Source: Candidatus Zixiibacteriota bacterium
Lineage (GTDB): Bacteria; Zixibacteria; MSB-5A5; UM-FILTER-46-8
Length of the DNA: 40,277 bases
Direction of reading: 5' to 3'
Assembly: GCA_026983835.1 (NCBI GenBank)
Contig: JALSTH010000100.1
Location: 1-40,277, forward strand
The notes beneath the pieces were generated by a model, which had not been told where the DNA came from, made no database searches, and saw only the letters and a list, made by a program, of their open reading frames with translations. Position numbers and translations under genes: made by a program. Positions 10,240 to 27,902 of the stretch are shown here, in pieces. Positions within the stretch are counted from its first letter, which is position 1, and each line of letters opens with the position of its first letter.

Positions 10240-12537
10240 ATGAGATACCCTGCCGTTATCGCCCTGTTATTCTTGGTGGCTGGCATCGTGGGAGCCTACT
10301 TCCTGACGATTCCCCCTTGGATACCGATAATGATAACCGCAGCGCTTATACTAATATCCTTGATTCTACTGTATTCAGGCGAACGGCGATATCTGAATAT
10401 CTCCGTTGCCTTACTTTTGATAAGTTTGGGATTTGCCCGAACACAACTGTTTACCAGCCAATACCCGGCTAATCATATTTCAAAATTTACATCCTTAAAT
10501 ACCAAATTGCGCTTTGCCGGAAAAATAGCTTCCGAGCCGGATATCAGGGATTCATACACATATCTGACCCTATCGGTTGATTCCCTCTATATAAGGAATA
10601 AATCAATCCCGACAACCGGTAAGGTTTTAGTAAAGATCCGCCCCGCAACCGGCAAGTTTCAATACGGGGATTATGTTTCGGTTTACGGATATCTGAACAA
10701 TCCCCCTAAACCGGGCAATCCGAACCTCTTCGATTATCGCGGTTATCTCAATCGAAAAGGGATATACGGCTACTGCTCGGTCAAGGGTGATTACAATGTA
10801 AATATAATCAAACATTCAGGATATAACGATTTCATCTCGGCAATAATTTTACCGGTGCGCCGATACCTTTTGTCGGTTTTCTCCCAGCTTCCACATAAGG
10901 AAAACGGGGCATTATTGGCAGGATTTTTAATCGGGGAGAAAAGGGGGATTCCTGTTAAGATCAGGAACGATTTCATCCGCTCCGGGACGATGCACCTTTT
11001 AGCCGTCTCCGGTTCCAATGTGGCTCTTGTCAGTTCGCTATATTTCGTTTTTCTGATGTTTATCCCGATAAAGAAGCGTTGGAAACTGCTGGGAAGTATC
11101 CCTGTTTTGATAATCTTCTCTTTTGTCGCCAACAATGAGCCCTCCGTAGTGCGGGCTACGATAATGGTTATAATCGGGATTTCCGCCTATATATGGAGAC
11201 GCAGGGTAAACCCTTTGAACATAGCCGCCTCGGCTGCGCTTTTGATTTTATCGGTTTATCCATTATGGCTTTTCGATGCCGGTTTTCAGCTATCCTTTGC
11301 CGCCGTTTTCGGGATAGTGCTCTGCCTTAAAATGAGAATATTTAAATCCATAAACGGGGAAACCATCTGGGGAAAGTTTAAGGGATATATTATCCGAATA
11401 ATCTTGATAAGTGCGGCCGCTTTCTTGTTTACCGCTCCGATTATCGCTTATTATTTCAACCGAATAGCGACCTATTCATTAATCGCCAATATTCCCGCCG
11501 CAATGCTTATTTCAATAATCACATTTTTGGGTGGAGTGAGTATAATCGTTTTCCCTTTGGGCGGATGGTTGGCTCAGGGCGTTTTGCTGCTGACAGATAT
11601 TTCAATAACTGTTATATTGGACATAGTCGCCTTTTTCTCCTCTCTGCCCTACGCCAACCCGCTGATACCTTCGCCCTCGCTTTTGACCATCTTTATTCTT
11701 TACCTAATTCTCCTCGTCCCGTTGATAATCTCGTGGCAACCCCGTTTAGGCAAAATATTCCTGATATTATTCCTGTTTTTACTGAATGTCGATATATGGG
11801 GAGCGAATTACAGGATGACGCAAAAGCGTTGCTCGGTTGAGTTTTTAGATGCGGGTTATTCCAATGCGGTGTTTGTAAGCTTACCGAATAGCAGTAATAC
11901 GCTTATCTATGCCGGCGATAAGCGAACCTATAAGTCGATAGGCGAAAAATATATATTGCCCCACATTTTAAGGGAAGGATACCGCAAAATAAATAATCTG
12001 ATATTAACGGAAACCTCCGAGTGGTCTTTTAACGGATTGGATAGTTTGTTGAAGGAAAATATAATCCAAAAGGTGTGGATACCATATAATTCCACAATCA
12101 AAGAAAGTATCACAAATACTGGATATGGAGGAAGGATAAGCGAGTTTGATGCAGGGGAAATGCTTTCCGAAAAGGACGATAAAATTAAATACATCATTAT
12201 AAAACCCGATAATAATTCAAGGAAAGCGGAAACGGATGACGACCATTTTGCCATAATGATTGAAGTCTTTGGCAGGGGCGTCCTTTTTGACGGCAAAACT
12301 CCGCCCGATACCGCAAGCGCTCATTTTCAGGAAGCGGAGATAATGCAATTGGATGAATCTTATGCAAAATGGGCGCTGAAGCGAGAAAACGATTGGGTAA
12401 TACCGGTAATAATAAGCGGAAAGCCCTTCCTTTATTGGCTCGAAGGAAGGGAGGCGGATTACTCATCGATAAAGAGGATCCGTTATAGCGGCGCACAACG
12501 ATATATTGTGAAGCCTGAGGGAATAACATCTTTTTGA
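10240..12537 (+). CDS. comEC: ComEC/Rec2-type DNA uptake channel with degenerate hydrolase tail
   Basis: This is a 765-residue protein. Domains in order are two or three N-terminal membrane helices; a soluble OB-like DUF4131 region (about 75-195, ending GNPNLFDYRGYLNRKGIYGYC); the polytopic competence domain (about 215-500, with HLLAVSGSNVALVSSLYF, the diagnostic loop, and AGFQLSFAAVFGIVL); and a C-terminal metallo-beta-lactamase-like region (about 525-750). ComEC carries single-stranded DNA across the inner membrane in transformation. In the last region the usual GQGD is GYSN and the HxHxDH motif is LTETSEWSFNGL, so nuclease-type metal binding is lost. Neighbouring pilus motors fit a DNA-uptake role. 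Confidence 0.9.
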   Translation: MRYPAVIALLFLVAGIVGAYFLTIPPWIPIMITAALILISLILLYSGERRYLNISVALLLISLGFARTQLFTSQYPANHISKFTSLNTKLRFAGKIASEPDIRDSYTYLTLSVDSLYIRNKSIPTTGKVLVKIRPATGKFQYGDYVSVYGYLNNPPKPGNPNLFDYRGYLNRKGIYGYCSVKGDYNVNIIKHSGYNDFISAIILPVRRYLLSVFSQLPHKENGALLAGFLIGEKRGIPVKIRNDFIRSGTMHLLAVSGSNVALVSSLYFVFLMFIPIKKRWKLLGSIPVLIIFSFVANNEPSVVRATIMVIIGISAYIWRRRVNPLNIAASAALLILSVYPLWLFDAGFQLSFAAVFGIVLCLKMRIFKSINGETIWGKFKGYIIRIILISAAAFLFTAPIIAYYFNRIATYSLIANIPAAMLISIITFLGGVSIIVFPLGGWLAQGVLLLTDISITVILDIVAFFSSLPYANPLIPSPSLLTIFILYLILLVPLIISWQPRLGKIFLILFLFLLNVDIWGANYRMTQKRCSVEFLDAGYSNAVFVSLPNSSNTLIYAGDKRTYKSIGEKYILPHILREGYRKINNLILTETSEWSFNGLDSLLKENIIQKVWIPYNSTIKESITNTGYGGRISEFDAGEMLSEKDDKIKYIIIKPDNNSRKAETDDDHFAIMIEVFGRGVLFDGKTPPDTASAHFQEAEIMQLDESYAKWALKRENDWVIPVIISGKPFLYWLEGREADYSSIKRIRYSGAQRYIVKPEGITSF

Positions 12538-12548
12538 GCGATTAATTT

Positions 12549-13748
12549 ATGCTTACCACAAAACTTAAAAAAGAGCGGGGATTCAATGGGAATTTGAGCT
12601 CCATCCCGCTTTTGGATATTTTTCAACTTCTCTTCAGCGGAAGGAAAAGCGGTGTGTTGGAGATCGTGGATGGAGAAAGTAAGACCAAGATTTACCTCAA
12701 ATCCGGATTGATAATCGCCGCGGAATCCACTATGGATAAAGACCTGTTGGGTAATCTATTTATTAAGCGCTGTCGTCTGCCTAAAAGAGAGTTGAATCAA
12801 GCTACCAACCTCCACCGAAAAACGGGGAAGCCTTTGGGGGAGATATTGATCGAGATGGAGATTTTAAGCGAAGTGGAGATAAACAGCGCCTTGAAAATAA
12901 AGGTGGAAGAGATTATTTACGATCTGTTCGGCTGGAAATCCGGGAATTTCCAATTCCACGAGGGGGATGTCTCGCCAAGACCTGAATTGGAGAACCCGTT
13001 AAATCCGATGAATGTTATAATGGAGGCTACGAGGAGACTTGATGAGTGGGCTCAAATTCAGGAGGATCTGCCTCCGGAAAATTCGATTTTATTCCCGATT
13101 ATCCCTGAGGATTTCGCAGAGAACGATATACGGATTACAAAAGATGACTTCGCAATTATCACCTCCATCAATGGGAAAAAGAGCCTCCGCCAAATCTTAA
13201 CCGATAGTCCCTACGATAGATTCACCACGGCCAAATCGATACACCGTTTCATTACAATGGGGCTTTTGGGTTATTCCAAATCCGAAATAGAAGACAACGA
13301 TAACATCGAGGAAAATCCTCAATCGGTTTTAGAGGAGATTTTAAGATTTCATAAGGATATCTACGAGTTGGTATCGGGTTTCTTTTCCGAATATATGGGT
13401 GAAGCGGGAGCGGGGATTCTTACGAAAGTATTCAAAAAACGCCGATATAAAAATTCGATTTTGGACAAAGCGACATCCTCCAACGGGAATACAATCGATT
13501 TTTCCAAAGTATCGGAAGGGGATAAAAGTCTAACAGACCTCGCATATCTCTATAAAGTTTCGATTTCCTTTTATGCCTTATCGAAAGCGTATTTGGAAGC
13601 GGTAAGGGAATTCTTAGGCGGGGATATTTTTAATGAAGCGACATCCCGTCTTAAAAAGCGGAATTTAAGGCGATTCGAGAGCAGACGGCAACAGCTGATG
13701 GCGTTTGGCGTCGAAGAGGAGATATTTAAACTTCTGAATATAAAATAA
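12549..13748 (+). CDS. PATAN/DUF4388 domain protein
   Basis: This is a 399-residue protein. The first half (about 12-155) is a DUF4388/PATAN domain: FNGNLSSIPLLDIFQLLFSGRKSGVLEI, IYLKSGLIIAAES, LGEILIEMEILSE, and IIYDLFGWKSGNFQFHEG. The second half is helical with no motif I recognise. PATAN domains occur in cyanobacterial response regulators that bind the pilus motor PilB and set motility direction; in other bacteria they accompany GTPase and roadblock genes. Here it heads the run that ends with PilB, PilT and PilC, 11 bases after comEC. It has no receiver domain, so its input is probably protein contact rather than phosphorylation. Confidence 0.8.
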   Translation: MLTTKLKKERGFNGNLSSIPLLDIFQLLFSGRKSGVLEIVDGESKTKIYLKSGLIIAAESTMDKDLLGNLFIKRCRLPKRELNQATNLHRKTGKPLGEILIEMEILSEVEINSALKIKVEEIIYDLFGWKSGNFQFHEGDVSPRPELENPLNPMNVIMEATRRLDEWAQIQEDLPPENSILFPIIPEDFAENDIRITKDDFAIITSINGKKSLRQILTDSPYDRFTTAKSIHRFITMGLLGYSKSEIEDNDNIEENPQSVLEEILRFHKDIYELVSGFFSEYMGEAGAGILTKVFKKRRYKNSILDKATSSNGNTIDFSKVSEGDKSLTDLAYLYKVSISFYALSKAYLEAVREFLGGDIFNEATSRLKKRNLRRFESRRQQLMAFGVEEEIFKLLNIK

Positions 13749-13766
13749 CAAAGCTTAGAGGGGGTT

Positions 13767-14156
13767 ATGCCGAAAATAACATATAGATTGGGATTGGCGA
13801 TGATAACCTTGGGTTGTCTTTTCGGTTGCTCCGATGCCAATGCCTCTCCTTCTGATTTAAACCCCTTGATGGAAGGCTATGGTGTGATTTATAATCTCCT
13901 ATTGCTCATAATCTCCCTGCTCGGATTTGTTATCGCTCTTAAAATCAGTAAGGCGTTCCGAAGGGGGCGACTTTTTGCCCCTTGGGTTTTGATAACTTCA
14001 GCCTTCGGTTTATTCGCAGCCGACTCCATGCTCGCCTTAATCGGCAGGCTCAACATTTCTGCGGGCTTTAATTCTTTCTATTCTATTTTATGGGTATTGG
14101 GTTTTGTTATGCTCCTTGTGGCGGGATATCTTTACAAAAAGGCGGTTTTGAGATAA
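13767..14156 (+). CDS. Small three-helix membrane protein
   Basis: This 129-residue protein is not assigned to a family. It has a hydrophobic N terminus with TLGCLFGCSD that resembles a lipoprotein signal (Leu-Phe-Gly-Cys). Three membrane helices follow (about 42-62, 72-94, 102-124) separated by the basic loop KISKAFRRGR. AGAGGGGG precedes the ATG. It sits 18 bases after the PATAN gene and 13 bases before the TPR-roadblock gene, so it belongs to the polarity run. It may give a membrane site for its soluble neighbours. Confidence 0.65.
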   Translation: MPKITYRLGLAMITLGCLFGCSDANASPSDLNPLMEGYGVIYNLLLLIISLLGFVIALKISKAFRRGRLFAPWVLITSAFGLFAADSMLALIGRLNISAGFNSFYSILWVLGFVMLLVAGYLYKKAVLR

Positions 14157-14169
14157 TGGGGGATATGGT

Positions 14170-15030
14170 TTGGATGAATTAGACCGCAGGATTGAAAAAT
14201 GCAAACGCATCCTTAAAGGTAATCCCAATTCACAGATATTTGCCGCTTTGGCGGATTGCTACCTAAAAAAGGGCGAACCCCGAAAAGCATACGATATCTG
14301 CGCCAATGGCTTAAGGAAATATCCCAATTACGGCTCAGCTCATCTGGTTATGGCTAAAATAGCCCTATCCATATCTAAAATAGAGCTTGCGAAAAAGAGC
14401 CTGCAAACGGCTATTGCGTTTAACGGTCGAAACAGGGCTATCGATTATTGGGAGTGCAAAATAGCCATTGAAGCGGGAGAATTGCGAAAGGCGGGGGATC
14501 TGATTTCGAAAATCAAAAGATGGAATCGGAATAACTCGGTGATAGCGGAGTTGGAATATATGCTTTATGAAGCACAGAAAACCGATGATAACCCCAACAG
14601 GAAGCCCCAAAATATCCATTATGGCGCACAAAATAAGGTATCCGCTATAAACCAAAAGGACACCCTTGCCGATAATGATAAAAACCGGCATATCACCGTT
14701 GATTCGATGATAAAATCGATTGCTTCTCTGCCATCGATGGAATATGCGATAGCGTTCAATTTCAACGGCGATGTCCAAGCATCTTATGGTGAAAACGGGA
14801 AAATCGAAACGGCGGCGGAATTTGGGAAGGCGGCCGTTCATGGATTACGGCACGGGTTAAGCAAAGCCGGATTCGGGGAACTGAAAGGTTTTCTTTTAGA
14901 GGCGGATGATCGGACTGCTTTTCTGCAAAATATGGGAAATTTCTATCTGCTTTGTGAAGGCGATTCAAAGATAAATCTTGGAGTTATCGGATTACAAATC
15001 TCGGAGATGCTTAAACAGTTGAAAGGATGA
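14170..15030 (+). CDS. TPR-roadblock/LC7 fusion protein
   Basis: This is a 286-residue protein with two parts. Residues 1-145 contain TPR-like helix pairs (LDRRIEKCKRILKGNPNSQIFAALADCYLKKGEPRKAYDICANGLRKYPN and following units). Residues 175-286 form a roadblock/LC7 fold (SIASLPSMEYAIAFNFNGDVQAS ... FGELKGFLLEADDRTAFLQNMGNFYLLCEGDSKINLG ... GLQISEMLKQLKG). Roadblock domains dimerise and act on Ras-like GTPases such as MglA; TPR proteins can be MglA effectors that activate pili. The start is TTG behind GGGGGAT, because the nearby ATG frames stop at once. It lies four genes upstream of mglA. Confidence 0.75.
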   Translation: MDELDRRIEKCKRILKGNPNSQIFAALADCYLKKGEPRKAYDICANGLRKYPNYGSAHLVMAKIALSISKIELAKKSLQTAIAFNGRNRAIDYWECKIAIEAGELRKAGDLISKIKRWNRNNSVIAELEYMLYEAQKTDDNPNRKPQNIHYGAQNKVSAINQKDTLADNDKNRHITVDSMIKSIASLPSMEYAIAFNFNGDVQASYGENGKIETAAEFGKAAVHGLRHGLSKAGFGELKGFLLEADDRTAFLQNMGNFYLLCEGDSKINLGVIGLQISEMLKQLKG

Positions 15031-15040
15031 TAGGAACTCG

Positions 15041-15964
15041 ATGAATTCAAAAGAAATCATAATGATCTCCTTGGTATCGCTGTTTTTGGGAGTAATGTTT
15101 AGCTTCTTTTATCCGGGCGGAGCGGACCTTCCGAGGCCGTTTCCTCCCGTCTTATGGTTTCTCATAGAGTTCTGCTATTACGCTTTCGTCATAGCCTTAT
15201 TCGATGAAAACACTAATTTCAACGACCATCTTTTCTATGCGGTGGGAAGTTTTCTGTTTCGGGTGACAACATCCTTGGCTTTCGCCGCAGCTTTGGCAAC
15301 CGCCGGAAACGCTGATTTTAGAACGGCAATCAGATTGGGGATAATCGATTATGTTCCGGAGGTTTTTCCTCTGGTCATAGTTTCCCCCTGGGTGTTATTA
15401 ACTCTGACAAAGGGCGGTTCATCCACAATTACCGAAAGAGGCACCTCGAGGGTTTTACAAAATACCGCCGGCAGGTTTGCTTATGCCGGTAATCCGTCGA
15501 AGGAAAATCCCCAAAAGGAATCAACACCGTCAGGCAATCGGCGGGAGGAGGAGATATCCTCCTCCCACCGAATAACTTCATTTAACGATGCGCTCGAATA
15601 TTTACGCGGTTTTCGGGGGGTAAAGGGAATTATCCTTACGAACACCGAGGGAACTTTAATCGACTGTCGAGGATATTCGCATCACCAGGCCGAAGAATGG
15701 GCGGCTTACGGGGCGGAATTGTTCTCTTATCGGAAGAATATAATCGCATTCGGAATCGGGTCGGAGACGGATATGGATTTGGATTACCTTGAGTTGGCTT
15801 CCTCGAGGCGGAGAATTTCGGTTTTTAGGATTTATGAACTGTTATTGATAGTATTCTCCGAGAGGAAATCGGACGAACTGGTAAAGGTGGGCGCTTTGCG
15901 GACCGCCGAGATATTGTCAACGATATATAAAAATTACGAAATGAAAATAAGCTCTTCGGCATAA
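15041..15964 (+). CDS. Membrane-anchored roadblock/LC7 protein
   Basis: This 307-residue protein has four N-terminal membrane helices (about 8-24, 34-52, 62-86, 100-122). A polar linker follows (about 125-180, rich in Ser, Asn, Glu). The C-terminal roadblock/LC7-like domain (about 182-305) contains NDALEYLRGFRGVKGIILTNTEGTLIDCRGYSHH and ELLLIVFSERKSDELVKVGALRTAEI. The topology places the roadblock domain in the cytoplasm. I infer a membrane receptor for an MglA-type GTPase or for the other roadblock proteins. It starts 10 bases after the TPR-roadblock gene, with TAGGAA as ribosome site. Confidence 0.75.
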   Translation: MNSKEIIMISLVSLFLGVMFSFFYPGGADLPRPFPPVLWFLIEFCYYAFVIALFDENTNFNDHLFYAVGSFLFRVTTSLAFAAALATAGNADFRTAIRLGIIDYVPEVFPLVIVSPWVLLTLTKGGSSTITERGTSRVLQNTAGRFAYAGNPSKENPQKESTPSGNRREEEISSSHRITSFNDALEYLRGFRGVKGIILTNTEGTLIDCRGYSHHQAEEWAAYGAELFSYRKNIIAFGIGSETDMDLDYLELASSRRRISVFRIYELLLIVFSERKSDELVKVGALRTAEILSTIYKNYEMKISSSA

Positions 15965-15975
15965 AGGGGATTAGT

Positions 15976-16329
15976 ATGTATGCAACATTAACCGAGCTCA
16001 ACAAAACAAGCGGGATTAAGGGGAGTATGCTGGTCGGGGCCGATGGGATAATAATAGCCGCCGACCTCGAATCCGATTTGGAGGACGATACTGTCGGCGC
16101 TTTATCCGCCTCGATATTGGCGGGTGTCAAAAAAGCGATAAAGCGGCTTAATTATGGTGCATTGAAACAAATAATGGTGGAAGCGGAGAAGGGGAAAATA
16201 TTCCTCGCCGAATGCAGGTTGGGAATTTTAGTCGTCTTAACCGAGACGGAAGTAAACATCGGGCTTATCCGTCTTGAAATGAAAGCGGCTTTGAAAAAGG
16301 TGGAAAACCAAACTGTATCCGTCAACTGA
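15976..16329 (+). CDS. Stand-alone roadblock/LC7 protein
   Basis: This 117-residue protein is a single roadblock/LC7 domain: LNKTSGIKGSMLVGADGIIIAADLESD, LSASILAGVKKAIKRLNYG, IMVEAEKGKIFLAECRLGILVVLTETEVNIGLIRLEMKAAL. It lacks the C-terminal acidic helix present in MglB at 17767, so it is probably a different partner. It may pair with one of the two fused roadblock proteins upstream. AAAGGGGAT precedes the ATG. It ends 33 bases before mglA. Confidence 0.85.
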   Translation: MYATLTELNKTSGIKGSMLVGADGIIIAADLESDLEDDTVGALSASILAGVKKAIKRLNYGALKQIMVEAEKGKIFLAECRLGILVVLTETEVNIGLIRLEMKAALKKVENQTVSVN

Positions 16330-16362
16330 CAAAGTTAATAAGCATAAATTAAAGGTGATAGT

Positions 16363-17754
16363 ATGGTTACTATAAATTACGCATTTAAAGAGGTCATCTG
16401 CAAAATAGTTTATTATGGTCCGGGGCTTTCCGGGAAAACGACTAATCTCCAATATGTTTTCGACAAGGTTCCGTCAAACGCCCGTGGAGAACTCATCTCT
16501 TTGGAGACCGAAGCGGACAGGACCTTATATTTCGATTTCCTTCCGATAAATTTGGGCAGTATTCAGGGGTTGGCGACGAAGTTCCAGCTTTACACGGTCC
16601 CGGGACAGGTTTTTTACAATGCGACGCGAAAATTAGTCCTCCGCGGGGTCGATGGCTTGGTCTTCGTGGCGGATTCCCAAGCCGCAAAAATGGATGAAAA
16701 TATCGAGAGCTTAAATAACCTAAAGGAAAACCTTATCGAGTATGGATACAATTTCGATGAGATCCCTTTGGTAATACAATATAACAAGCGCGATCTGCCC
16801 TCTATCGAACCGATAGAACATTTGCAATCGGTTTTAAACCCTAAAAATACCCCTTATTTCGAGGCTGTGGCGACAAGAGGCTTAGGCGTTTTCGACACGC
16901 TGAAATCAATTTGTAAGATGGTGTTGGACAACGCAAAGGAACAATCCAAGATGAGGGATATCGGAGAAACGACAGTTGCTCGGAAAGAAGAACATTTCGA
17001 CGCTCGGCCCAAAGTTTCACAGCAAAATCGGGAAACCGTAAAAACCGTACGGAATCAATCGAACCGCACCAAAAGCGGTCCCGGATTCAAGCCCGGGGTA
17101 ACCGTGATGACAGACCCATCGGCAAATAAGAAAAAAGCGATAAGTGAGGAAATCGCCCCAACGGTGGATAATCGAGAAATAGATGATCTGAATACCAATT
17201 CTACCGGACAGGGAGCCGTTAGGAAAAGAATGGAAAAACAAATTACCCCGACGGACGCAGATTCCCATCCAACCGATTTCTCCGAAGAGATAAATCCCGA
17301 TGGGAAAGAACAAAAAACCCAACCTCCACCTTTTATCCCCGGTTTCGAAAGGGGAGAAGCGAAACTCGGTGAAGACGAAAAGATCGATAAAAGGGACACA
17401 TCAAACACCGCAATCGATACCGATGCTGACTATCGAACAGGGAGATCGTCCGAGGGAGCAATTGCCGGTGAACCTCCACCCATACAAAACGAAAACAAGG
17501 AAGAAACTTCTATGAATGATACTGCGGTGATAAAAGAATCCCTCCCTCCGAAATCCGATAATCGAAGGGGGAAAACTAATACTGATGATAAATTTGAAAA
17601 GGCAGGCGACATCACAGGAGAAGGATTCGATACTGTCACTTCCAAAAATAAAATAGCAAATGGCCAAAAGCAGAATATCCGACCCAATCTTGAACCGAAA
17701 AAGAATAAGCGGGGAGGATTGTTCGGGTGGATAAGAAAACTCGGCGGCAAATAA
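16363..17754 (+). CDS. mglA: MglA-type Ras-like GTPase with long disordered C-terminal tail
   Basis: This is a 463-residue protein. Residues 1-195 match MglA, down to Myxococcus numbering: P-loop GPGLSGKTT at 19-27, ETEADRT with the intrinsic arginine finger R53 and T54, TVPGQ with catalytic Q82, and NKRD at 141-144. MglA-GTP marks the leading cell pole and activates type IV pili or gliding complexes. Ordinary MglA is about 195 residues. Here about 268 residues follow, rich in Lys, Glu, Asp, Asn, Pro and Thr with no predicted fold. The end, GGLFGWIRKLGGK, looks like a basic amphipathic membrane-binding helix. AAGGTGAT precedes the ATG. It sits 12 bases upstream of mglB. Confidence 0.92.
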   Translation: MVTINYAFKEVICKIVYYGPGLSGKTTNLQYVFDKVPSNARGELISLETEADRTLYFDFLPINLGSIQGLATKFQLYTVPGQVFYNATRKLVLRGVDGLVFVADSQAAKMDENIESLNNLKENLIEYGYNFDEIPLVIQYNKRDLPSIEPIEHLQSVLNPKNTPYFEAVATRGLGVFDTLKSICKMVLDNAKEQSKMRDIGETTVARKEEHFDARPKVSQQNRETVKTVRNQSNRTKSGPGFKPGVTVMTDPSANKKKAISEEIAPTVDNREIDDLNTNSTGQGAVRKRMEKQITPTDADSHPTDFSEEINPDGKEQKTQPPPFIPGFERGEAKLGEDEKIDKRDTSNTAIDTDADYRTGRSSEGAIAGEPPPIQNENKEETSMNDTAVIKESLPPKSDNRRGKTNTDDKFEKAGDITGEGFDTVTSKNKIANGQKQNIRPNLEPKKNKRGGLFGWIRKLGGK

Positions 17755-17766
17755 GGAGGTAATAAA

Positions 17767-18249
17767 GTGAACGGCGAAAATCAGGTGTTTTACGAAAACG
17801 ACATAAAAGCGATCGATAAGTTGCTCTCTAAATTGATTAACGAGGCGGAAGCCAAATGCGCCCTGTTGGTCAATAAAGATGGTCGATTGATAACGCGTCA
17901 GGGCTTCACCAATACAATCGATATAACAGCCCTTTCGGCACTCCTCGCCGGCAGTTTCGCCTCCACGAAGGAGATAGCTCGACTTGTCGGCGAACCGGAA
18001 TTTTCGGTTTTGTTCCACCAGGGGAAAAGGGATCATATACATATAAATCTTGTGGGCGAAAACAGCATATTGGTGGTCATTTTCGATGACCGAACCACTA
18101 TCGGGATGGTGCGGTTAATAACCAAAGAGATAACTTATAAATTACTGGCGATAATCGAAAAATCCGGAGATGGACAATCTCGGGACAAAATGGATGAGCA
18201 ATTTACTTCGATGGCGGAAGACAAATTAAACGATATTTTCAAAGATTAA
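17767..18249 (+). CDS. mglB: MglB roadblock-type GTPase-activating protein
   Basis: This 160-residue protein has nearly the length of Myxococcus MglB (about 159) and matches it along the whole sequence: FYENDIKAIDKLLSKL, AKCALLVNKDGRLITRQG, IDITALSALLAGSFASTKEIARLVGEPEFSVLFHQG, ILVVIFDDRTTIGMVRL, and a C-terminal acidic helix ending DKLNDIF. MglB homodimers stimulate GTP hydrolysis by MglA and act with it in setting polarity. The start is GTG behind a full TAAGGAGGT at 17752-17760, 6 bases away. Gene order is mglA-mglB, the reverse of Myxococcus. Confidence 0.9.
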   Translation: MNGENQVFYENDIKAIDKLLSKLINEAEAKCALLVNKDGRLITRQGFTNTIDITALSALLAGSFASTKEIARLVGEPEFSVLFHQGKRDHIHINLVGENSILVVIFDDRTTIGMVRLITKEITYKLLAIIEKSGDGQSRDKMDEQFTSMAEDKLNDIFKD

Positions 18250-18273
18250 TCCGATTACAGAGAGCTTGTCTTA

Positions 18274-19989
18274 ATGATGCAAATTTCGGGAAACACATCG
18301 AATATCGAATTAGGCAATCTTTTGGTCAACGCGGGAGTAATAACCAAAGACCAACTAGAGGAAGCATTACAAATACAGGAAAAGGAAGAAAAAAAGCTCA
18401 GTGAAGTATTGGTTAAAATGGGTGCTATTCCTAATGAGGGAGTAGTCACAAAATATATTGGGAAACAATTAAATATAGGCTCAATCCGATTAGAAGACCT
18501 TGAGCTTAACCCCGAAATAGTAAAACTTATCCCCAATGACATTGCGCGGAAATTTAATGTCATAGCCGTCTCCAAATTGGGAAGGACCTTGATAGTCGCT
18601 ATTTCCGACGCAAGCAATATCTATGTGTTGGATGCCATAAAATTCATTACCGGGCATACAATTCAGCCGGTTATCGCTTCCGAGGAATCCATTTCCAAAG
18701 CGATAGAGCAGTATTACTTGGAACAGAGTGGCTTGGAGGAAGTTATACGGGGGTTGGGGGATGACGAATTGGAGTTGGTGGAAACCGAATCGGATACCGC
18801 CGAGTTAGACCTTCAAGCGATGGTGGAGGACAAGCCTTTAGTTAAGCTCGTCGATTCGATTATCGCCGAGGCAATTAAAAAGAACGCTTCCGATATCCAT
18901 ATAGAATGCTACGAAAGGAGAATAAGGGTCCGCTACCGCATCGACGGTGATCTGCAGGAGATGGCTCCCATACCTTTCAAATACCGCGCCGCCATAATCT
19001 CCCGAATCAAGATTATGGCTGAACTCGATATCTCCGAGAGAAGACTTCCGCAGGATGGCAGGATAAAGGTTAAAATGCAGGATAGACATATCGACCTGCG
19101 CGTTTCTATTCTACCCACAATCTTCGGCGAAAAGGTTGTGATGAGGATATTGGACCCGAAAAGCCTTATGGTCGATATGACAAAATTGGGGATGCCTCAA
19201 CGGGCATTAGATAATTTCAAAAGGGCGATTCATTTGCCCTATGGCATCATATTGGTAACGGGACCCACCGGCTCGGGTAAAACCACTACCCTGTATTCCG
19301 CACTGAAAGCCCTGAACACCGTTAATGTCAACATTATGACTTCCGAAGATCCGGTCGAGTTTAATTTCGATGGGATAAACCAAGTAGCGGTCAGAAGCAA
19401 TATCGGATTGACTTTCGCCGCTGCCCTGCGGTCGTTCTTGCGTCAAGACCCGGATATAATTATGGTCGGTGAGATAAGAGATGAGGAAACCGGGGAGATA
19501 GCGATTAAAGCCGCCCTGACGGGACATTTGGTTTTTTCGACTTTGCATACCAATGATGCCCCATCGACAATTATGAGATTAATCGATATGGGGATACCTG
19601 ATTACTTGGCGGCTTCGGCCGTAAAATTGATTATGGCGCAGCGTATCGTTAAGAAAATATGCCCGTCCTGTAAATATGAGCTAAAGAAAAAACCGGAAGG
19701 ATTGTCGAAATTGGGTCTCACCCCAGAGGAGATAGAAGCAATGCCGGTTTATGCCGGTAAGGGTTGCCCAAGGTGCAACGGGACCGGATATTCGGGACGA
19801 ACCGGGTTGTACGAGGCAATGCCGATAAGCCTTGAAATAGAGAGGATGATTATCAATAAAGCTTCTCCCGAGGAAATCAAGGAGCAAGCTATAAAAGAGG
19901 GTATGATTACTCTCCGCCAAGCCGGCATCGAGAAAATCAGACAGGGAATTACTACTTGGGAAGAGGTAGTTGGCGAAACCGTCGGTTGA
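18274..19989 (+). CDS. pilB: Type IV pilus extension ATPase
   Basis: This 571-residue protein has an N-terminal MshEN-type domain (LGNLLVNAGVITKDQLEEALQIQ ... LIPNDIARKF), the secretion-ATPase core with Walker A GPTGSGKTT at residues 330-338, the Asp/His boxes, and the tetracysteine zinc site C463, C466, C498, C501 followed by GYSGRTGLYEAMP. All are typical of PilB/GspE. It powers pilin polymerisation at the inner membrane. MshEN domains often bind cyclic-di-GMP; I cannot confirm all ligand residues. It begins 24 bases after mglB with a weak ribosome site, which ties the motor to the polarity genes. Confidence 0.93.
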   Translation: MMQISGNTSNIELGNLLVNAGVITKDQLEEALQIQEKEEKKLSEVLVKMGAIPNEGVVTKYIGKQLNIGSIRLEDLELNPEIVKLIPNDIARKFNVIAVSKLGRTLIVAISDASNIYVLDAIKFITGHTIQPVIASEESISKAIEQYYLEQSGLEEVIRGLGDDELELVETESDTAELDLQAMVEDKPLVKLVDSIIAEAIKKNASDIHIECYERRIRVRYRIDGDLQEMAPIPFKYRAAIISRIKIMAELDISERRLPQDGRIKVKMQDRHIDLRVSILPTIFGEKVVMRILDPKSLMVDMTKLGMPQRALDNFKRAIHLPYGIILVTGPTGSGKTTTLYSALKALNTVNVNIMTSEDPVEFNFDGINQVAVRSNIGLTFAAALRSFLRQDPDIIMVGEIRDEETGEIAIKAALTGHLVFSTLHTNDAPSTIMRLIDMGIPDYLAASAVKLIMAQRIVKKICPSCKYELKKKPEGLSKLGLTPEEIEAMPVYAGKGCPRCNGTGYSGRTGLYEAMPISLEIERMIINKASPEEIKEQAIKEGMITLRQAGIEKIRQGITTWEEVVGETVG

Positions 19990-20051
19990 TATAATATCAA
20001 TCCGATTTCAGTCGATATATGCTATAGGAAAACTGTTTTTAAGAGGGTAAA

Positions 20052-21152
20052 ATGGTCGGTTTACAGGAACTGTTAAAAAAGATGATAGATAAAAACGCAT
20101 CCGATCTGCATCTTACCGTAGGGAGCTCCCCACAATTGAGAATCGACGGCCAATTAACCAAAACCGATTACGAAAGACTTAACCCCGAAACCACCCGAAG
20201 GTTGGCATACAGTATTATGACTGAAAAACAAAAGCTCCTTTTCGAAAAAAAGTCCGAGTTGGATCTTTCCTTCGGCGTGGAAAACCTCTCCCGTTTCAGG
20301 GTAAATATTTTTATGCAGAGGGGAAATGTCGCCATAGCGATTCGCCAAATACCGTTTAGGATTCGCACCTTCGATGAATTGGGATTGCCGAAAGTCGTGT
20401 CCGACTTGGCTAATCTCCCGCGTGGATTGGTACTTGTAACCGGGCCCACCGGTGCGGGGAAATCGACAACTTTAGCAGCCATAATCGATAAGATAAACAG
20501 GGAGAGACATGAACATATAATCACGGTGGAAGACCCGATAGAGTTTCTCCATAAACATAATAACTGTATAATAAATCAACGAGAGGTCTATGCGGATACC
20601 GAGTCATTCGCCAGCGCCCTGAAATATGCGATGCGTCAAGATCCCGATGTCGTACTGATAGGAGAGATGCGCGATCTAGAAACTATGCAATCGGCACTCA
20701 CCATATCCGAGACCGGGCATTTGGCTTTCGCCACCCTGCATACCAATTCCTGCGCCGAATCGATTAACAGGATAATCGATGTGTTTCCGATGAATCAGCA
20801 GGAACAGATTCGGGTTCAGCTGTCATTCACCCTGCAAGCGGTCATAGCTCAACAGCTGATTCCAAAAGTCGGTGGAGGGCGGGCTTTGGCATTGGAGATA
20901 CTTATATGCACACCGGCGATAAGAGCGGTTATCCGAGACGATAAGGTCCATCAGGTTTACAGCCTTATGCAAGCCGGACAGAAATACGGAATGAAAACGA
21001 TGAACCAATCATTGTTTGAATTGTATTCCCAGAGAAAAATAACGCTCAACGATGCGATGGGAAGAAGTTCCAATCCGCAGGAGTTGAGCGAAATGATTTC
21101 GCGCCGCGGAGGCCAAATGGTCGGGAGCGGCACAGCATTTAATAAATTTTAA
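20052..21152 (+). CDS. pilT: Type IV pilus retraction ATPase
   Basis: This 366-residue protein has the usual PilT length. Features are LLKKMIDKNASDLHLTVGSSPQLRIDG, the Walker A GPTGAGKST at residues 131-139, VEDPIEFLH, RQDPDVVLIGEMRDLETMQSALTISETGHLAFATLHTN, and SINRIIDVFP. It depolymerises the pilus for twitching and for DNA uptake. TAAGAGGGT precedes the ATG. A 62-base gap separates it from pilB and pilC follows after 14 bases. Confidence 0.94.
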   Translation: MVGLQELLKKMIDKNASDLHLTVGSSPQLRIDGQLTKTDYERLNPETTRRLAYSIMTEKQKLLFEKKSELDLSFGVENLSRFRVNIFMQRGNVAIAIRQIPFRIRTFDELGLPKVVSDLANLPRGLVLVTGPTGAGKSTTLAAIIDKINRERHEHIITVEDPIEFLHKHNNCIINQREVYADTESFASALKYAMRQDPDVVLIGEMRDLETMQSALTISETGHLAFATLHTNSCAESINRIIDVFPMNQQEQIRVQLSFTLQAVIAQQLIPKVGGGRALALEILICTPAIRAVIRDDKVHQVYSLMQAGQKYGMKTMNQSLFELYSQRKITLNDAMGRSSNPQELSEMISRRGGQMVGSGTAFNKF

Positions 21153-21166
21153 GAGGGTGAACGCTG

Positions 21167-22369
21167 ATGCCTCAATTCGATTACAAAGGCAAAACATTGG
21201 GGGGAGCGGAAGTCTCCGGGGTTTTAACCGCAAAAAACAAACAGGAGCTGGAGCGGGTGCTCCGCCGACGGAAAATATTGGTTACTCAAGTAAACAAGAA
21301 ACCGTCTCAAATAAATATCAGCTTTGGCAAAAAGAAAATAAAAAAGATCGATATATCCAGATTCACGCGACAATTCGCCACTATGATCTCAGCTGGTTTG
21401 CCTATGGTGCAATGTCTGGAAATTTTAGCCCAACAATCGGAAAACCCCGAGATGCGCAGAGTAATCAACGAGATTAAGGAATCGGTTCAGGGCGGAGCCA
21501 CGCTATCGGAATCATTAGGCAAGCATAAGAAGGTTTTTGACGATTTATATGTCAATATGGTGGAAGCCGGGGAGATAGGCGGAGCATTGGATGTAATCCT
21601 GGTGCGATTGGCAATATTCAGGGAAAAAGCGGATGCGCTTGTGCGTAAGGTTCGGGGTGCAATGATTTATCCGATCGTTGTACTTACCGTTGCGTTGGGG
21701 GTCACTTTCGGTATGCTCACATTTATTGTTCCGGTATTCGCCAAGATGTTCGCCGGGTTAGGAGCGGAACTCCCTGCTCCTACCGTTTTCGTCTTAAACT
21801 TAAGCAATGCGCTCAAAGCGAATATCCTTAATATCGGTATCGTAATAGTGGCTCTAATATTCCTGTTCAAATGGTACAGCCGCAAACCCAAAGGTAAATT
21901 GACAATCGATAAAATAAAGTTGAAAATTCCGCTTTTGGGAACTCTGATTAGAAAAAGCTCCGTCTCGAGGTTTACAAGAACCCTGGGAACCTTACTCTCT
22001 TCCGGCGTAGCCATATTGGATGCGCTCGATATCACCGCTAAAACGGCGGGCAATTCCGTCGTGCAGCAAGCTATTAGACGATCCGTAGTCTCGATCGCCG
22101 AAGGTGAAACGATTACCGCGCCGTTAAAGGAATCGGGGGTATTCCCGCCTATGGTTACCCAGATGATATCCGTAGGGGAAAAAACGGGAGGCCTCGATGA
22201 GATGCTGTCTAAAATAGCCGACTTTTATGATGAGGAAGTGGATGCGGCGGTAGCAGCCCTCACTTCGGTAATCGAGCCGGTGATAATTGTTTTTCTCGGT
22301 GCCGTGATGGGAGGAATCCTAATAGCTATGTACTTGCCGATGTTCGATATTATCGGCAAAATATCGTAA
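21167..22369 (+). CDS. pilC: Type IV pilus inner-membrane platform protein
   Basis: This 400-residue protein belongs to the PilC/GspF family. Two cytoplasmic helical repeats (FTRQFATMISAGLPMVQCLEILAQQ near 65 and FTRTLGTLLSSGVAILDALDI near 268) carry the family signature. They alternate with membrane helices near 165-190, 220-238 and 365-388. PilC is the rotor-like platform that PilB and PilT turn. TAAGAGGGTGA lies just upstream. No pilin or pilMNOPQ genes are in the window. Confidence 0.93.
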   Translation: MPQFDYKGKTLGGAEVSGVLTAKNKQELERVLRRRKILVTQVNKKPSQINISFGKKKIKKIDISRFTRQFATMISAGLPMVQCLEILAQQSENPEMRRVINEIKESVQGGATLSESLGKHKKVFDDLYVNMVEAGEIGGALDVILVRLAIFREKADALVRKVRGAMIYPIVVLTVALGVTFGMLTFIVPVFAKMFAGLGAELPAPTVFVLNLSNALKANILNIGIVIVALIFLFKWYSRKPKGKLTIDKIKLKIPLLGTLIRKSSVSRFTRTLGTLLSSGVAILDALDITAKTAGNSVVQQAIRRSVVSIAEGETITAPLKESGVFPPMVTQMISVGEKTGGLDEMLSKIADFYDEEVDAAVAALTSVIEPVIIVFLGAVMGGILIAMYLPMFDIIGKIS

Positions 22370-22388
22370 ACCGCATAAATATGCCAAG

Positions 22389-24191
22389 ATGAAAGGGGAG
22401 AAGCACAACAACACAACGGGATCCAACAGCTTGACATTACTGCTTCTCCCCCGTTTCATTGCCTTTATCTCCCTGTTCGGAAGCGCTATTTTTATCCTCA
22501 ACTCGAAATTGTTCGTCTTCAAATTACTGCTCCTTTATGGGGTGGCATCACTTGTCTATTTGACCCTGTTATTTTTGCGGAAGAAAATAATCCGCCTTCA
22601 TTTACAAAACATACTAATCATCCACATACTTTTCGAAGTAATTATCTCCGGAGTGATGGTATATCATTCCGGCGGCGGCAACAGCCCGTTAGTCCTTTTC
22701 TTTATCCTAAGCATAGCTTCGGCTGCAATGGTTTATCAGTTGTCCGGGGCTTTATATATAACTTTATCATCGGTTATAAGTTATTTGACCGCCACCTATT
22801 TCGCACGGCAGGATTTATTCGTCAACTTATCATTTTTTAGATTATGGGAGAACATCGCCGGCAACAAATCGCTGTTTTTCACAATAATGCTGAATATCGT
22901 CTTGTTCACGATAGTCGGCATCATTTGCGGCTATATCGCTTATCATTTGAAAAAGGGGGGAGCCCTTTTGAAGAATACCGAGAGGGAGCTGAAAAAAGCC
23001 CGCTCCCTGACGATGGATATTCTTGAAAGTATGGGAAGCGGTTTGATTTGTATCAATGATTTTAGTGAACTGTTGATGATTAACCGAACTGCAAAAGCGA
23101 TATTAGGGTTAAATATGGACGATCAGGGGGGAGGACATTTATTCGATTATTTTCGGGGACGGCTGTTGCCATTGGCGAAATTCCTCCATAACTCGCTTAG
23201 CCATCCCCTCCATTCCAAACAATTCGAGCTGATAATCCACTCACCTGACGGGGCGAAAATTCCCTTGGGGATTTCGGTTTCACCGTTATCCGAAGGCGAA
23301 CATGGGGGCAAGGGGATTATCGCGGTCTTTAACGACCTCACGGAATCGATAAATATGCAGCTTAAATTGAGGACTTACGACCGCTTGGCGGCGGTAGGAA
23401 AACTCTCCGCCGGAATAGCGCACGAAATTCGCAATCCCCTAACTTCGATTTCCGGCTCGGTGGAAATTCTCAAAACGGAATTGGAACTACGGGGATCAAA
23501 CGCAAAGCTGATGGAAGTCATCATAAGGGAAACCGAAAGGCTGGACAGAATTATCGCTGAATTTTTAACTTATGCCCGCATAAAACCCTCAAAACCGACA
23601 GTTATCGACCTTATCTCCATTATCCGGGAGGTTATAGGGTATTTTCATCATCAAAGCGAATATGCGGCAGATATCCGTCTCCAAGAGGGGTTTCAACAAC
23701 AGCTGATGATTTACGGGGACAGAGAAAAATTAAAACAGGTATTTATCAGAATTATCTTAAATGCGATACAATCCTCGACGGCAAATACCCCTAAAATGGA
23801 GATAGGGCGGAAGGTCGATTTAGGCAAAAGACAGTTTATTATAACTGGTGATTTCAACAACCCGATCAGGGAATTTCGCAGAGCGGATGAGGAAAGGGTA
23901 TTGGATTCGGGGGAATACGAAACGGTTTCAATACGGGACTACAGCGGGGGGATCAGGGCGGATAGGATAGAGAAGATATTCCAACCCTTTTATTCCACCC
24001 GTCAGGGAGGGAGTGGGTTGGGGCTTCCCATCGTGCAACGGTTAATGGAATCTATGGAAGGTGTTATAATATTTGAAACCACCGAAGGCGACGGCTCGGT
24101 TTTCACAATATGCTTAAAAAGGGTTAAAACGGGTAGCTCCCCAAAATCGGTCTTTGCCGAAACAAAGGGTCTGTTATCTGTCGGTTCTTAA
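22389..24191 (+). CDS. PilS-like membrane sensor histidine kinase
   Basis: This is a 600-residue protein. About six membrane helices (residues 15-190) form a PilS-type sensor. A PAS-like domain follows (about 205-325, MDILESMGSGLICINDFSELLMINRTAKAILG). The dimerisation/phosphoacceptor box is GKLSAGIAHEIRNPLTSISG (His near 345). A HATPase domain ends in GGSGLGLPIVQRLMESMEG. In pilus systems PilS senses pilin in the membrane and signals to the sigma54 activator PilR. No PilR gene is adjacent; the next gene runs the other way and overlaps the 3' end by 18 bases. Position right after pilC supports a pilus-linked role. Confidence 0.85.
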   Translation: MKGEKHNNTTGSNSLTLLLLPRFIAFISLFGSAIFILNSKLFVFKLLLLYGVASLVYLTLLFLRKKIIRLHLQNILIIHILFEVIISGVMVYHSGGGNSPLVLFFILSIASAAMVYQLSGALYITLSSVISYLTATYFARQDLFVNLSFFRLWENIAGNKSLFFTIMLNIVLFTIVGIICGYIAYHLKKGGALLKNTERELKKARSLTMDILESMGSGLICINDFSELLMINRTAKAILGLNMDDQGGGHLFDYFRGRLLPLAKFLHNSLSHPLHSKQFELIIHSPDGAKIPLGISVSPLSEGEHGGKGIIAVFNDLTESINMQLKLRTYDRLAAVGKLSAGIAHEIRNPLTSISGSVEILKTELELRGSNAKLMEVIIRETERLDRIIAEFLTYARIKPSKPTVIDLISIIREVIGYFHHQSEYAADIRLQEGFQQQLMIYGDREKLKQVFIRIILNAIQSSTANTPKMEIGRKVDLGKRQFIITGDFNNPIREFRRADEERVLDSGEYETVSIRDYSGGIRADRIEKIFQPFYSTRQGGSGLGLPIVQRLMESMEGVIIFETTEGDGSVFTICLKRVKTGSSPKSVFAETKGLLSVGS

Positions 24192-26500: not shown

Positions 26501-27223
26501 TCATTTTGCGATTTTGAGAAATTCCTTGATTATTTCGCTTCGAGGCGAGTTCAGGAAATTATCCGGCGGCGCCGATTCGATTATCCTGCCGTTATACATA
26601 AAATGCATCATCGAAGCGACATCCCGCGCAAAATCTATCTCATGGCTTATCACCACCATAGTCATTCCCTCCCCCGCTAATTTCCGTATCACTCTAAGCA
26701 CCTCCGCCGTCATCACCGGATCCAAAGCGGAAGTAGGTTCGTCAAAGAGCATTATCTTGGGCTTCATACACAATGCACGCGCAATAGCCACCCGTTGAGC
26801 CTGCCCCCCCGAAAGTTCCGCCGGTAAGGAATTCTCCTTCTCCGACAATCCAACCTTGCGCAACAACTCTCGGCTTATCTCCAACGCCTTCCTCACCCTC
26901 CGTTTACGGACCACCCTTTGCGCCAACATCAAATTCTGCAGAACGCTCAAATGGGGAAAAAGATTATAATGCTGGAAAACCATCCCGATTTCGCTTCTTA
27001 TCTCGGCGATACTTTTACGGTTTCGAGCGAGATAAACATTATCGATGATGATTTCGCCCGAATCGATCCTCTCCAAACCGTTCAGGCAGCGGAGGAATGT
27101 GCTTTTGCCCGATCCCGACGGTCCCAAAAGCACCGAGACCTCCCCGGAGGCAACCTCCATCGATACTCCATCCAAAACCTTCAACTTCCCAAAATTTTTG
27201 TACAGATTTTTAGCGGTTATCAT
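26501..27223 (-). CDS. Polar amino-acid ABC transporter ATP-binding protein (GlnQ type)
   Basis: This 240-residue protein has the standard length for GlnQ/HisP-type ATPases. Walker A is GPSGSGKST, the Q-loop is GMVFQHYNLFPHLSVLQN, the signature is LSGGQAQRVAIARAL, Walker B is IMLFDEPTSALDP, and the switch histidine lies in VVISHEIDFA. It drives uptake of a polar amino acid together with the permease and binding protein upstream. Its ATG overlaps the permease stop (TAATG). Confidence 0.92.
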   Translation of the reverse strand: MITAKNLYKNFGKLKVLDGVSMEVASGEVSVLLGPSGSGKSTFLRCLNGLERIDSGEIIIDNVYLARNRKSIAEIRSEIGMVFQHYNLFPHLSVLQNLMLAQRVVRKRRVRKALEISRELLRKVGLSEKENSLPAELSGGQAQRVAIARALCMKPKIMLFDEPTSALDPVMTAEVLRVIRKLAGEGMTMVVISHEIDFARDVASMMHFMYNGRIIESAPPDNFLNSPRSEIIKEFLKIAK

Positions 27224-27902
27224 TATCGATTGACCCCAAGCCCCTTTATACGGTATTTCTTCTCAATATAAGAAACCAATTTCGCCAAACTCAAGGTCAT
27301 AGATAAATAAATCAACCCTACGACCAACCAGGTTTCAAAATCAACGAAAAATTGGGAATAATATTCCCTGCCCGCACGGGTCAGCTCGCGCAACCCGATA
27401 ATCGATACCAACGAGGAATCCTTGAGGGCGGCGATAAATTCATTTGCCACCGGTGGTATAATCATACGGCCCGCTTGTGGGAGGATGACATATCGCATAG
27501 CCTGACCACGACTCATCCCGAGCGAGAGAGCGGATTCCAATTGCGCCTTCGGAACAGAACCGATGCCCGCCCTGATTATCTCCGCCAAATAAGCCGAATA
27601 ACAAATCGAAATCGCTGTGACGCCGGCGTAAAATCTGTCTAAATTCAAAATCTTTCCCAAGCCGAAATAAATAAAAAATATCTGCACCAACAAAGAACGC
27701 CACGAATAACATCCGTGTAAATACCGAAGAATTTGCTTAATAATTTTATGCGGGAAACACGCCCTACCGCAACTATAAGACCTAAAATCAAGGCGATGAT
27801 AAATGACGATACCGTAATGTAAATAGTCATCGGCACCGCAGGGAGCAGATATTTTAATATATCAAACAGAGTGCCAATTCCCGAACTGACCTGCCCAAAC
27901 AT
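27223..27902 (-). pseudogene. Polar amino-acid ABC permease with a one-base frameshift
   Basis: The gene reads in two frames. The first (from ATG 27902) encodes a HisM/GlnP-type N terminus through YTDVIRG and then departs from the family. The second resumes with LLVQIFFIYFGLGKIL and continues through the permease motif AAxxLGMSRGQAMRYVILPQA to its normal end. The family reads RG[TV]PLLVQ here. Restoring one base in GTTCTTTG near 27699-27705 (for example GTTCCTTTG) gives RGVPLLVQ. This is a single-base loss, either an assembly error or a very recent mutation. The rest is intact, about 226 residues with five membrane helices, and the neighbours are whole. Confidence 0.85.

Follow-up and report, generated by a model that had tools for sequence, protein, structure and literature searches.

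A Putative GTPase Switch Cassette Within a Conserved comEC-pilBTC Operon

The window analyzed here, a stretch of 40,277 nucleotides that makes up contig C100 (JALSTH010000100.1) of a Zixibacteria metagenome-assembled genome (MAG; 2.53 Mb draft, 134 contigs), carries a run of 12 genes on the plus strand in which an MglA/MglB GTPase pair, three further roadblock proteins, and a PATAN protein lie between comEC and the genes for the type IV pilus motor. The order is comEC, PATAN, small membrane protein, TPR-roadblock, membrane-roadblock, free roadblock, MglA, MglB, pilB, pilT, pilC, and pilS. We consider it probable, though well short of established, that the seven genes from PATAN to MglB provide a membrane-tethered MglA/MglB switch with a roadblock platform that acts on the PilB motor, for DNA uptake and/or twitching; each separate step of this mechanism is proposed with less confidence than the reading as a whole. 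MglA, MglB, PATAN, and roadblock proteins are individually known. An earlier note on this DNA had called the combination unfamiliar as a described system, and we likewise found no account of such a system in the papers searched, although the proximity of PATAN genes to mglA/mglB is on record (PMC4316618). Nor did these papers yield a description of a fixed comEC and pilBTC operon, of membrane- or TPR-roadblock fusions, or of a MinD-like MglA tail.

The eleven open reading frames (ORFs) that the earlier note had listed from PATAN to pilS are all present on a single strand, and the gaps between them are as short as it had held (18, 13, 10, 11, 33, 12, 24, 62, 14, and 19 bp, in order). The run begins one gene earlier than proposed, however, with comEC (10240..12537; Pfam Competence, 1e-51, and DUF4131), which encodes a DNA-uptake channel protein and ends 11 bp upstream of PATAN. 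Because comEC belongs to the run, the suggested link to DNA uptake is strengthened, whereas the description of a self-contained switch proves too strong, since pilM, pilN, pilO, and the secretin gene are located on a separate contig.

Conservation of the gene order was assessed in 53 same-class loci and in 80 named zixibacterial loci, two sets that share organisms and are thus not independent, with adjacency counted only over loci in which both members of a pair were present. In both sets, every neighboring pair between PATAN and PilS is adjacent in all loci or in all but one or two: MglA and MglB in 51/51 and 65/65, and MglB and PilB in 49/49 and 63/63. The comEC and PATAN genes are adjacent in 40/42 and 57/61 loci. 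This degree of order in both sets indicates more than chance, and the earlier note, which would have counted absence of the order from relatives against its proposal, is borne out on this point, as the order is phylum-wide and is found in part in further lineages. The operon MglA is present in 104 of the 111 zixibacterial genomes that are at least 80% complete, and the phylum search usually returned one MglA match per genome. Relatives of the operon in the named collection are nearly all labeled Candidatus Zixiibacteriota, for which the NCBI taxonomy has no named lower taxa. A scan of named genomes with the TPR-roadblock protein returned almost exclusively records labeled Zixibacteria, GN15, or "bacterium", along with a few labeled Ignavibacterium or Calditrichota, which are possibly mislabeled MAGs.

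MglA and Its C-Terminal Tail

The operon MglA (16363..17754) comprises 463 amino acids (aa), with a Group-1-type G domain (aa 1-195) followed by a tail of 268 aa that was absent from the earlier note. The G domain matches the structures of Myxococcus xanthus MglA (5e-77, over aa 3-193) and Thermus thermophilus MglA (1e-72), and all of the Group 1 residues R53, T78, and Q82 are retained; as is characteristic of Group 1, the gene lies beside that for MglB, at a distance of 12 bp. By comparison, the MglA proteins of M. xanthus, T. thermophilus, and Bdellovibrio bacteriovorus are 195-197 aa in length, and a 2014 survey of prokaryotic Ras-like GTPases left out sequences of more than 240 aa (PMC4316618). 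The window protein exceeds this single-domain limit, but since the limit is a survey filter and not a functional criterion, its G domain is still filed as MglA, and the same exclusion may have caused a class of tailed MglA proteins to be overlooked.

The greater part of the tail (16948..17691) is hypervariable and, from its composition, predicted to be disordered. Across the phylum these tails span 104-454 aa; P, A, E, and S are abundant in them, and both length and sequence vary save at the end. There, the window protein has a short basic and hydrophobic sequence resembling the membrane-targeting C-terminus of MinD (17692..17751; EPKKNKRGGLFGWIRKLGGK), with the extreme end KKNKRGGLFGWIRKLGGK. 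A basic/aromatic end, defined by a net charge of +4 or more and two or more F or W within the last 24 residues, occurs in 89 of 90 distinct complete zixibacterial MglA tails. The same criterion is passed by 1.4% of tails after shuffling, by 1 of 2948 windows from inside the tails, and by none of 31 tail-less MglA proteins from other phyla. In the commonest version, KKRGFFKRLFGIK, nine of ten aligned positions are identical to the end of Escherichia coli MinD (KKGFLKRLFGG, taken from the MG1655 record). Because MinD binds the membrane through such a C-terminal helix (PMC13246001), the end of the MglA tail may likewise serve as a membrane anchor. The hydrophobic moment of the tail ends is no higher than that of the same residues shuffled, so that an amphipathic helix is not singled out and the membrane-binding reading depends on the likeness to MinD. 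A second conserved stretch, resembling M-A-P-S-x-R-R, is located N-terminal to the basic/aromatic end.

A resident MinD was considered as a source of the motif and rejected: no MinD exceeded the family cut-off in 20 zixibacterial genomes, and the motif is therefore not shared with a resident Min system. Separately, tailed MglA proteins from several other lineages (loci L173, L177, L179, L184, L189, L193, and L197-L199) end in a conserved beta-like stretch (e.g., VPVELERDGERVRLKLRINVE) instead of a basic/aromatic one, so there are at least two kinds of tailed MglA.

Four Roadblock Proteins in One Operon

Directly downstream of MglA is MglB (17767..18249), a protein of the roadblock GTPase-activating protein (GAP) family, which matches Robl_LC7 over the cut-off (1.6e-13) and the MglB model NF052242 with an E-value of 5e-23, below that model's cut-off. 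The free, single-domain roadblock protein (117 aa; 15976..16329) likewise matches Robl_LC7 over the cut-off (8e-15). The roadblock domains of the other two proteins are invisible to Pfam. The first of these is a TPR-roadblock fusion of 286 aa (14170..15030; TPR_19, 7e-10), with helices at aa 2-139 and the roadblock domain at aa 177-283; the second is a membrane-roadblock fusion of 307 aa (15041..15964), in which a bundle of hydrophobic helices (aa 3-129) is joined by a linker to a roadblock domain (aa 181-306). Aligned with the free roadblock family in HHalign, the C-terminus of the TPR protein scored 99.3% and that of the membrane protein 97.3%, while non-roadblock controls scored 2.3% or less. 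AlphaFold models of the two fusions, built from named relatives, had a mean predicted local distance difference test score (pLDDT) of 89.6 for the TPR-roadblock protein, whose PDB matches are MglB and other roadblock proteins (including one from Streptomyces), and of 81.8 for the membrane-roadblock protein, whose best PDB matches include p14/MP1, Ragulator, and MglB. From the profile alignments and the structural matches together, the operon has four roadblock proteins: the three distinct architectures of the earlier note hold, but its count of three becomes four with MglB included.

The membrane-roadblock protein is shorter in some families of Zixibacteria, at only 133-160 aa, as though the membrane part had been lost (L036, L037, L038, L040, L067, and similar loci). 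Roadblock proteins often build heteromeric guanine nucleotide exchange factor (GEF) or GAP complexes, and MglB requires a partner for full activity (PMC9481161).

The PATAN Protein and the N-Terminus of PilB

The first gene of the cassette encodes a PATAN (DUF4388) protein of 399 aa (12549..13748; PF14332, 4.7e-33), which includes a helical insertion (12747..12896) homologous to the MshEN-type repeat at the N-terminus of PilB, as shown by HHalign (98.3%, E-value 2e-14, with controls below 1%) and by a match to NF053729. A motif check found that the tandem motifs for binding cyclic di-GMP (c-di-GMP; RLGxx..., with a conserved Arg and Gln) are degenerate, as the arginine is lost and the first residue is E or L in both the PATAN insertion and PilB, and that the G is mostly absent from the second such motif of PilB. 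Control by c-di-GMP through the MshEN-like domain of either protein was accordingly rejected: although genuinely homologous, the domain lacks the binding arginines in both. The domain that the two proteins have in common could mean that PATAN mimics or contacts PilB. Contact of this kind in cyanobacteria, to which the earlier note had appealed, has support in the literature, where the PATAN-type protein PixE interacts with PilB1 (PMC7690835).

Probable Natural Loss of the Cassette

In one zixibacterial genome (G005), which is 96% complete, MglA has no match and the TPR-roadblock protein has no strong one. Its locus reads peptidase, acyltransferase (lpxL), unassigned ORFs, comEC, pilB, pilT, pilC, and pilS; comEC and pilB are 290 bp apart, and the whole stretch of seven genes that runs from PATAN to MglB is missing. 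As exactly these seven are lost while comEC, pilBTC, and pilS are kept, the block behaves as a discrete cassette. In a tree of PilB, PilT, and PilC, this genome is nested in the phylum as sister to the family of the window (support 72, which is weak, from three genes), and the nested position makes loss more likely than ancestral absence. The PilB, PilT, and PilC proteins of this locus (L243) are on a long branch and have more changes at otherwise conserved columns than those of most relatives. Mapping of a PilB interface from residue changes found only in this genome was rejected: there were seven such changes versus at most five in any other genome, and they were scattered, with PilT and PilC also raised, so that the pattern looks like a general rate effect.

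The three genomes G008, G039, and G126, which lack a full match, are fragmented, with parts of the cassette on short contigs, and from G093 the whole locus is absent, including comEC and its PilB, which could be either a loss or an assembly gap.

Relatives of the Cassette Outside the Phylum

MglA was matched in 70 of 160 genomes from other phylum-level lineages. In one of these (G268, locus L170), TPR-roadblock, roadblock, tailed MglA, and MglB genes are followed by pilB, pilT, pilC, pilS, and a PilR-like regulator, and the MglA tail ends in RRGFFLWRLFRFWRSKK. In another (G231), the contig ends after a series of PATAN, TPR-roadblock-like, short roadblock, roadblock, tailed MglA, and MglB genes, while G358 and G194 have PATAN, TPR-roadblock, roadblock, tailed MglA, and MglB genes without pilBTC, with PATAN standing apart from the rest in G194. 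The basic/aromatic MglA end is common to the cassettes at L170 and L174 and does not occur in G358 and G194. Given these versions, the cassette extends beyond a single phylum and is not everywhere linked to pilBTC.

Two observations were made beside these loci. Upstream of the G268 cassette (L170, 12868-15664) are more roadblock-like proteins and an apparent receiver-PATAN fusion, such that the number of roadblock proteins may be greater still in this lineage. At L183 (9919-14110) and L186 (1119-4884), a ComEC-like gene follows one for a tailed MglA with a basic, Phe-containing end; PATAN is nearby and the other cassette genes are absent.

The Pilus Motor and Neighboring Genes

PilB (18274..19989), the extension ATPase, and PilT (20052..21152), the retraction ATPase, exceed their curated cut-offs (TIGR02538, 707 bits versus 676; TIGR01420, 498 bits versus 319), and are followed by the platform protein PilC (21167..22369; T2SSF, 1e-66) and a PilS-like membrane sensor kinase (22389..24191; PAS, HisKA, and HATPase_c). 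Pfam also detected T2SSE among the operon proteins. The remainder of the machine (PilM, PilN, PilO, an AMIN-domain protein, and the secretin) is on contig C25; with PilB and PilT above their cut-offs and these parts in the genome, the motor is assigned to type IVa. Elsewhere in the same genome (G000), one extra PilB-like ATPase lies beside PilC-like and pseudopilin-like genes in a type II secretion-like setting (C84), and another, with an extended frame of 727 aa, shares its contig (C56) with the gene for the only other PATAN protein. The small membrane protein (129 aa; 13767..14156) was called as an ORF and has no Pfam match, and its position is conserved across the phylum.

Upstream of comEC are lipid A acyltransferase-like, peptidase-like, and metallo-beta-lactamase-fold genes. 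A scan for promoters and terminators returned counts near the shuffled expectation and is therefore uninformative on the limits of the operon. Further along the window, on the minus strand (27223-27902), the permease gene of an amino-acid-type ABC transporter appears to be broken into two ORFs that overlap in different frames, as would result from a frameshift or from an error in the assembly.

Proposed Mechanism and Alternative Explanations

In the mechanism that we favor, the genes from PATAN to MglB would form a single GTPase switch cassette that controls the PilB/PilT/PilC motor encoded next to it and thereby DNA uptake (comEC) and/or twitching. In this scheme MglA would be tethered to the inner membrane through its disordered tail and MinD-like anchor, with MglB as its GAP, and the three extra roadblock proteins (membrane-embedded, TPR, and free) would pair mutually or with MglB to build a platform at the membrane for sensing, loading, or reading out MglA-GTP. 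In Myxococcus, MglA-GTP activates pilus extension via the TPR protein SgmX and the localization of PilB, and MglB is the GAP (PMC7519303); the TPR-roadblock protein might fill the effector role of SgmX, and contact by PATAN, or by the TPR-roadblock protein, might relay the state of the switch to PilB. A bolder version, which we put forward more tentatively, is that a bacterial Ras-like GTPase independently gained a Ras-like layout, in which a G domain is followed by a hypervariable disordered region and a basic membrane anchor, and that it operates with four roadblock domains (one of them membrane-embedded) as a bacterial equivalent of a Ragulator-type platform, gating the pilus motor for DNA uptake phylum-wide.

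Several findings weigh against the switch-on-motor mechanism. The pilus genes persist without the cassette in G005, relatives of the cassette occur away from pilBTC (L180 and L181), two additional PilB-like ATPases and another PilT are encoded in the genome, the similarity between PATAN and PilB falls within a domain whose c-di-GMP residues are degenerate, and the moment test did not single out an amphipathic helix at the tail end; moreover, the evidence comes from MAG sequence, which cannot reveal co-transcription. The first two of these would also be expected if the cassette were a general cell-polarity or surface-signaling system, adjacent to the pilus genes through shared regulation and without direct action on PilB, and in Myxococcus MglA also controls gliding (PMC9481161). 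We regard this as unlikely, given that the linkage is phylum-wide with gaps of tens of bases, that it recurs with pilBTC in another lineage (L170), and that there is usually one MglA match per genome.

A further alternative is that the operon serves competence only, in which case the switch would gate the timing of pilus retraction and of ComEC and would play no part in polarity or other spatial control. In its favor, comEC heads the run in almost all loci, still adjoins pilB after the loss of the cassette in G005, and has a counterpart beside tailed MglA in another lineage (L183 and L186); yet MglA and MglB act spatially where they are best studied (M. xanthus; PMC7519303), and the presence of comEC is no proof of competence, such that this explanation appears improbable to us, while spatial control of the pilus in Zixibacteria is plausible. 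As for the tail, its end might, in place of a membrane anchor, be a short protein-binding motif, with PilB, PilM, or one of the roadblock proteins as its partner, or might contact nucleic acid. The second conserved stretch preceding it, the outcome of the moment test, and the finding that no MinD passed its cut-off in 20 zixibacterial genomes are all consistent with this, but identity at nine of ten residues to the membrane-binding E. coli MinD end, and the fact that MinD ends are known membrane binders (PMC13246001), leave it somewhat unlikely.

If membrane tethering and control of PilB hold, the operon points to an undescribed control of where and when pili work, and pilus biology would gain a control cassette that is genetically linked to the motor and open to testing part by part, with the natural loss in G005 as a ready comparison. 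It would also bear on the action of MglA and MglB in bacteria other than Myxococcus, which need not possess RomR, SgmX, or Frz. For small GTPases, an origin of C-terminal membrane-anchoring extensions during the evolution of eukaryotes has been proposed, as argued for Rabs (PMC10933270), and a phylum-wide MglA with a conserved MinD-like end, if true, would be a bacterial parallel to these anchored GTPases.

Comparison With Known Systems

The actinobacterial conservon (CvnA kinase, CvnB roadblock, CvnC, and CvnD GTPase) differs from the zixibacterial operon in both order and content, as the kinase is here at the far end, after pilC. The likeness to the Ragulator/LAMTOR complex of the Rag GTPases lies in the p14/MP1 and Ragulator folds and in the combination of several roadblock proteins with a small GTPase, although that system is eukaryotic, has other GTPases, and offers a resemblance of fold only. 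With MinD, the tail shares a C-terminal KKxGF(F/L)KRLFG end, but MinD is an unrelated ParA/MinD-type ATPase, whereas here the end sits on the long disordered tail of a Ras-like GTPase. The cyanobacterial PixE-PilB1 pair is likewise an instance of a PATAN/DUF4388 protein acting on a type IV pilus motor (PMC7690835), but PixE is a PATAN-CheY-like response regulator, and Pfam detects no receiver domain in the zixibacterial PATAN protein. Genome surveys have found PATAN genes occasionally near Group 1 and Group 5 mglA (PMC4316618, citing Makarova 2006); the available part of that account describes no pilBTC operon or roadblock set, and tailed MglA proteins were set aside by its size filter. The same survey describes M. 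xanthus SofG, an MglA-family GTPase that is also longer than MglA (239 aa) and positions PilB and PilT (PMC4316618), although no cognate GAP of SofG is known.

The closest counterpart in content is the MglA/MglB-SgmX-PilB module of M. xanthus, which shares a Group-1-type MglA, MglB, a TPR partner, and an output on PilB and type IV pili (PMC7519303, PMC11580455). In that organism RomR/RomX, MglB, and RomY determine which nucleotide MglA carries (PMC9481161); neither the RomR/RomX exchange factor nor the RomY co-GAP was found in the zixibacterial operon, at which no profile search for them was aimed. The MglA of M. xanthus is tail-less, at 195 aa, while that of Zixibacteria is long-tailed, and SgmX has 14 TPRs and no described roadblock domain, whereas the zixibacterial TPR protein has about eight short helices and a roadblock domain, and so does not qualify as an SgmX. 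Unlike the M. xanthus module, the zixibacterial operon combines three extra roadblock proteins and a PATAN protein in one operon with pilBTC.

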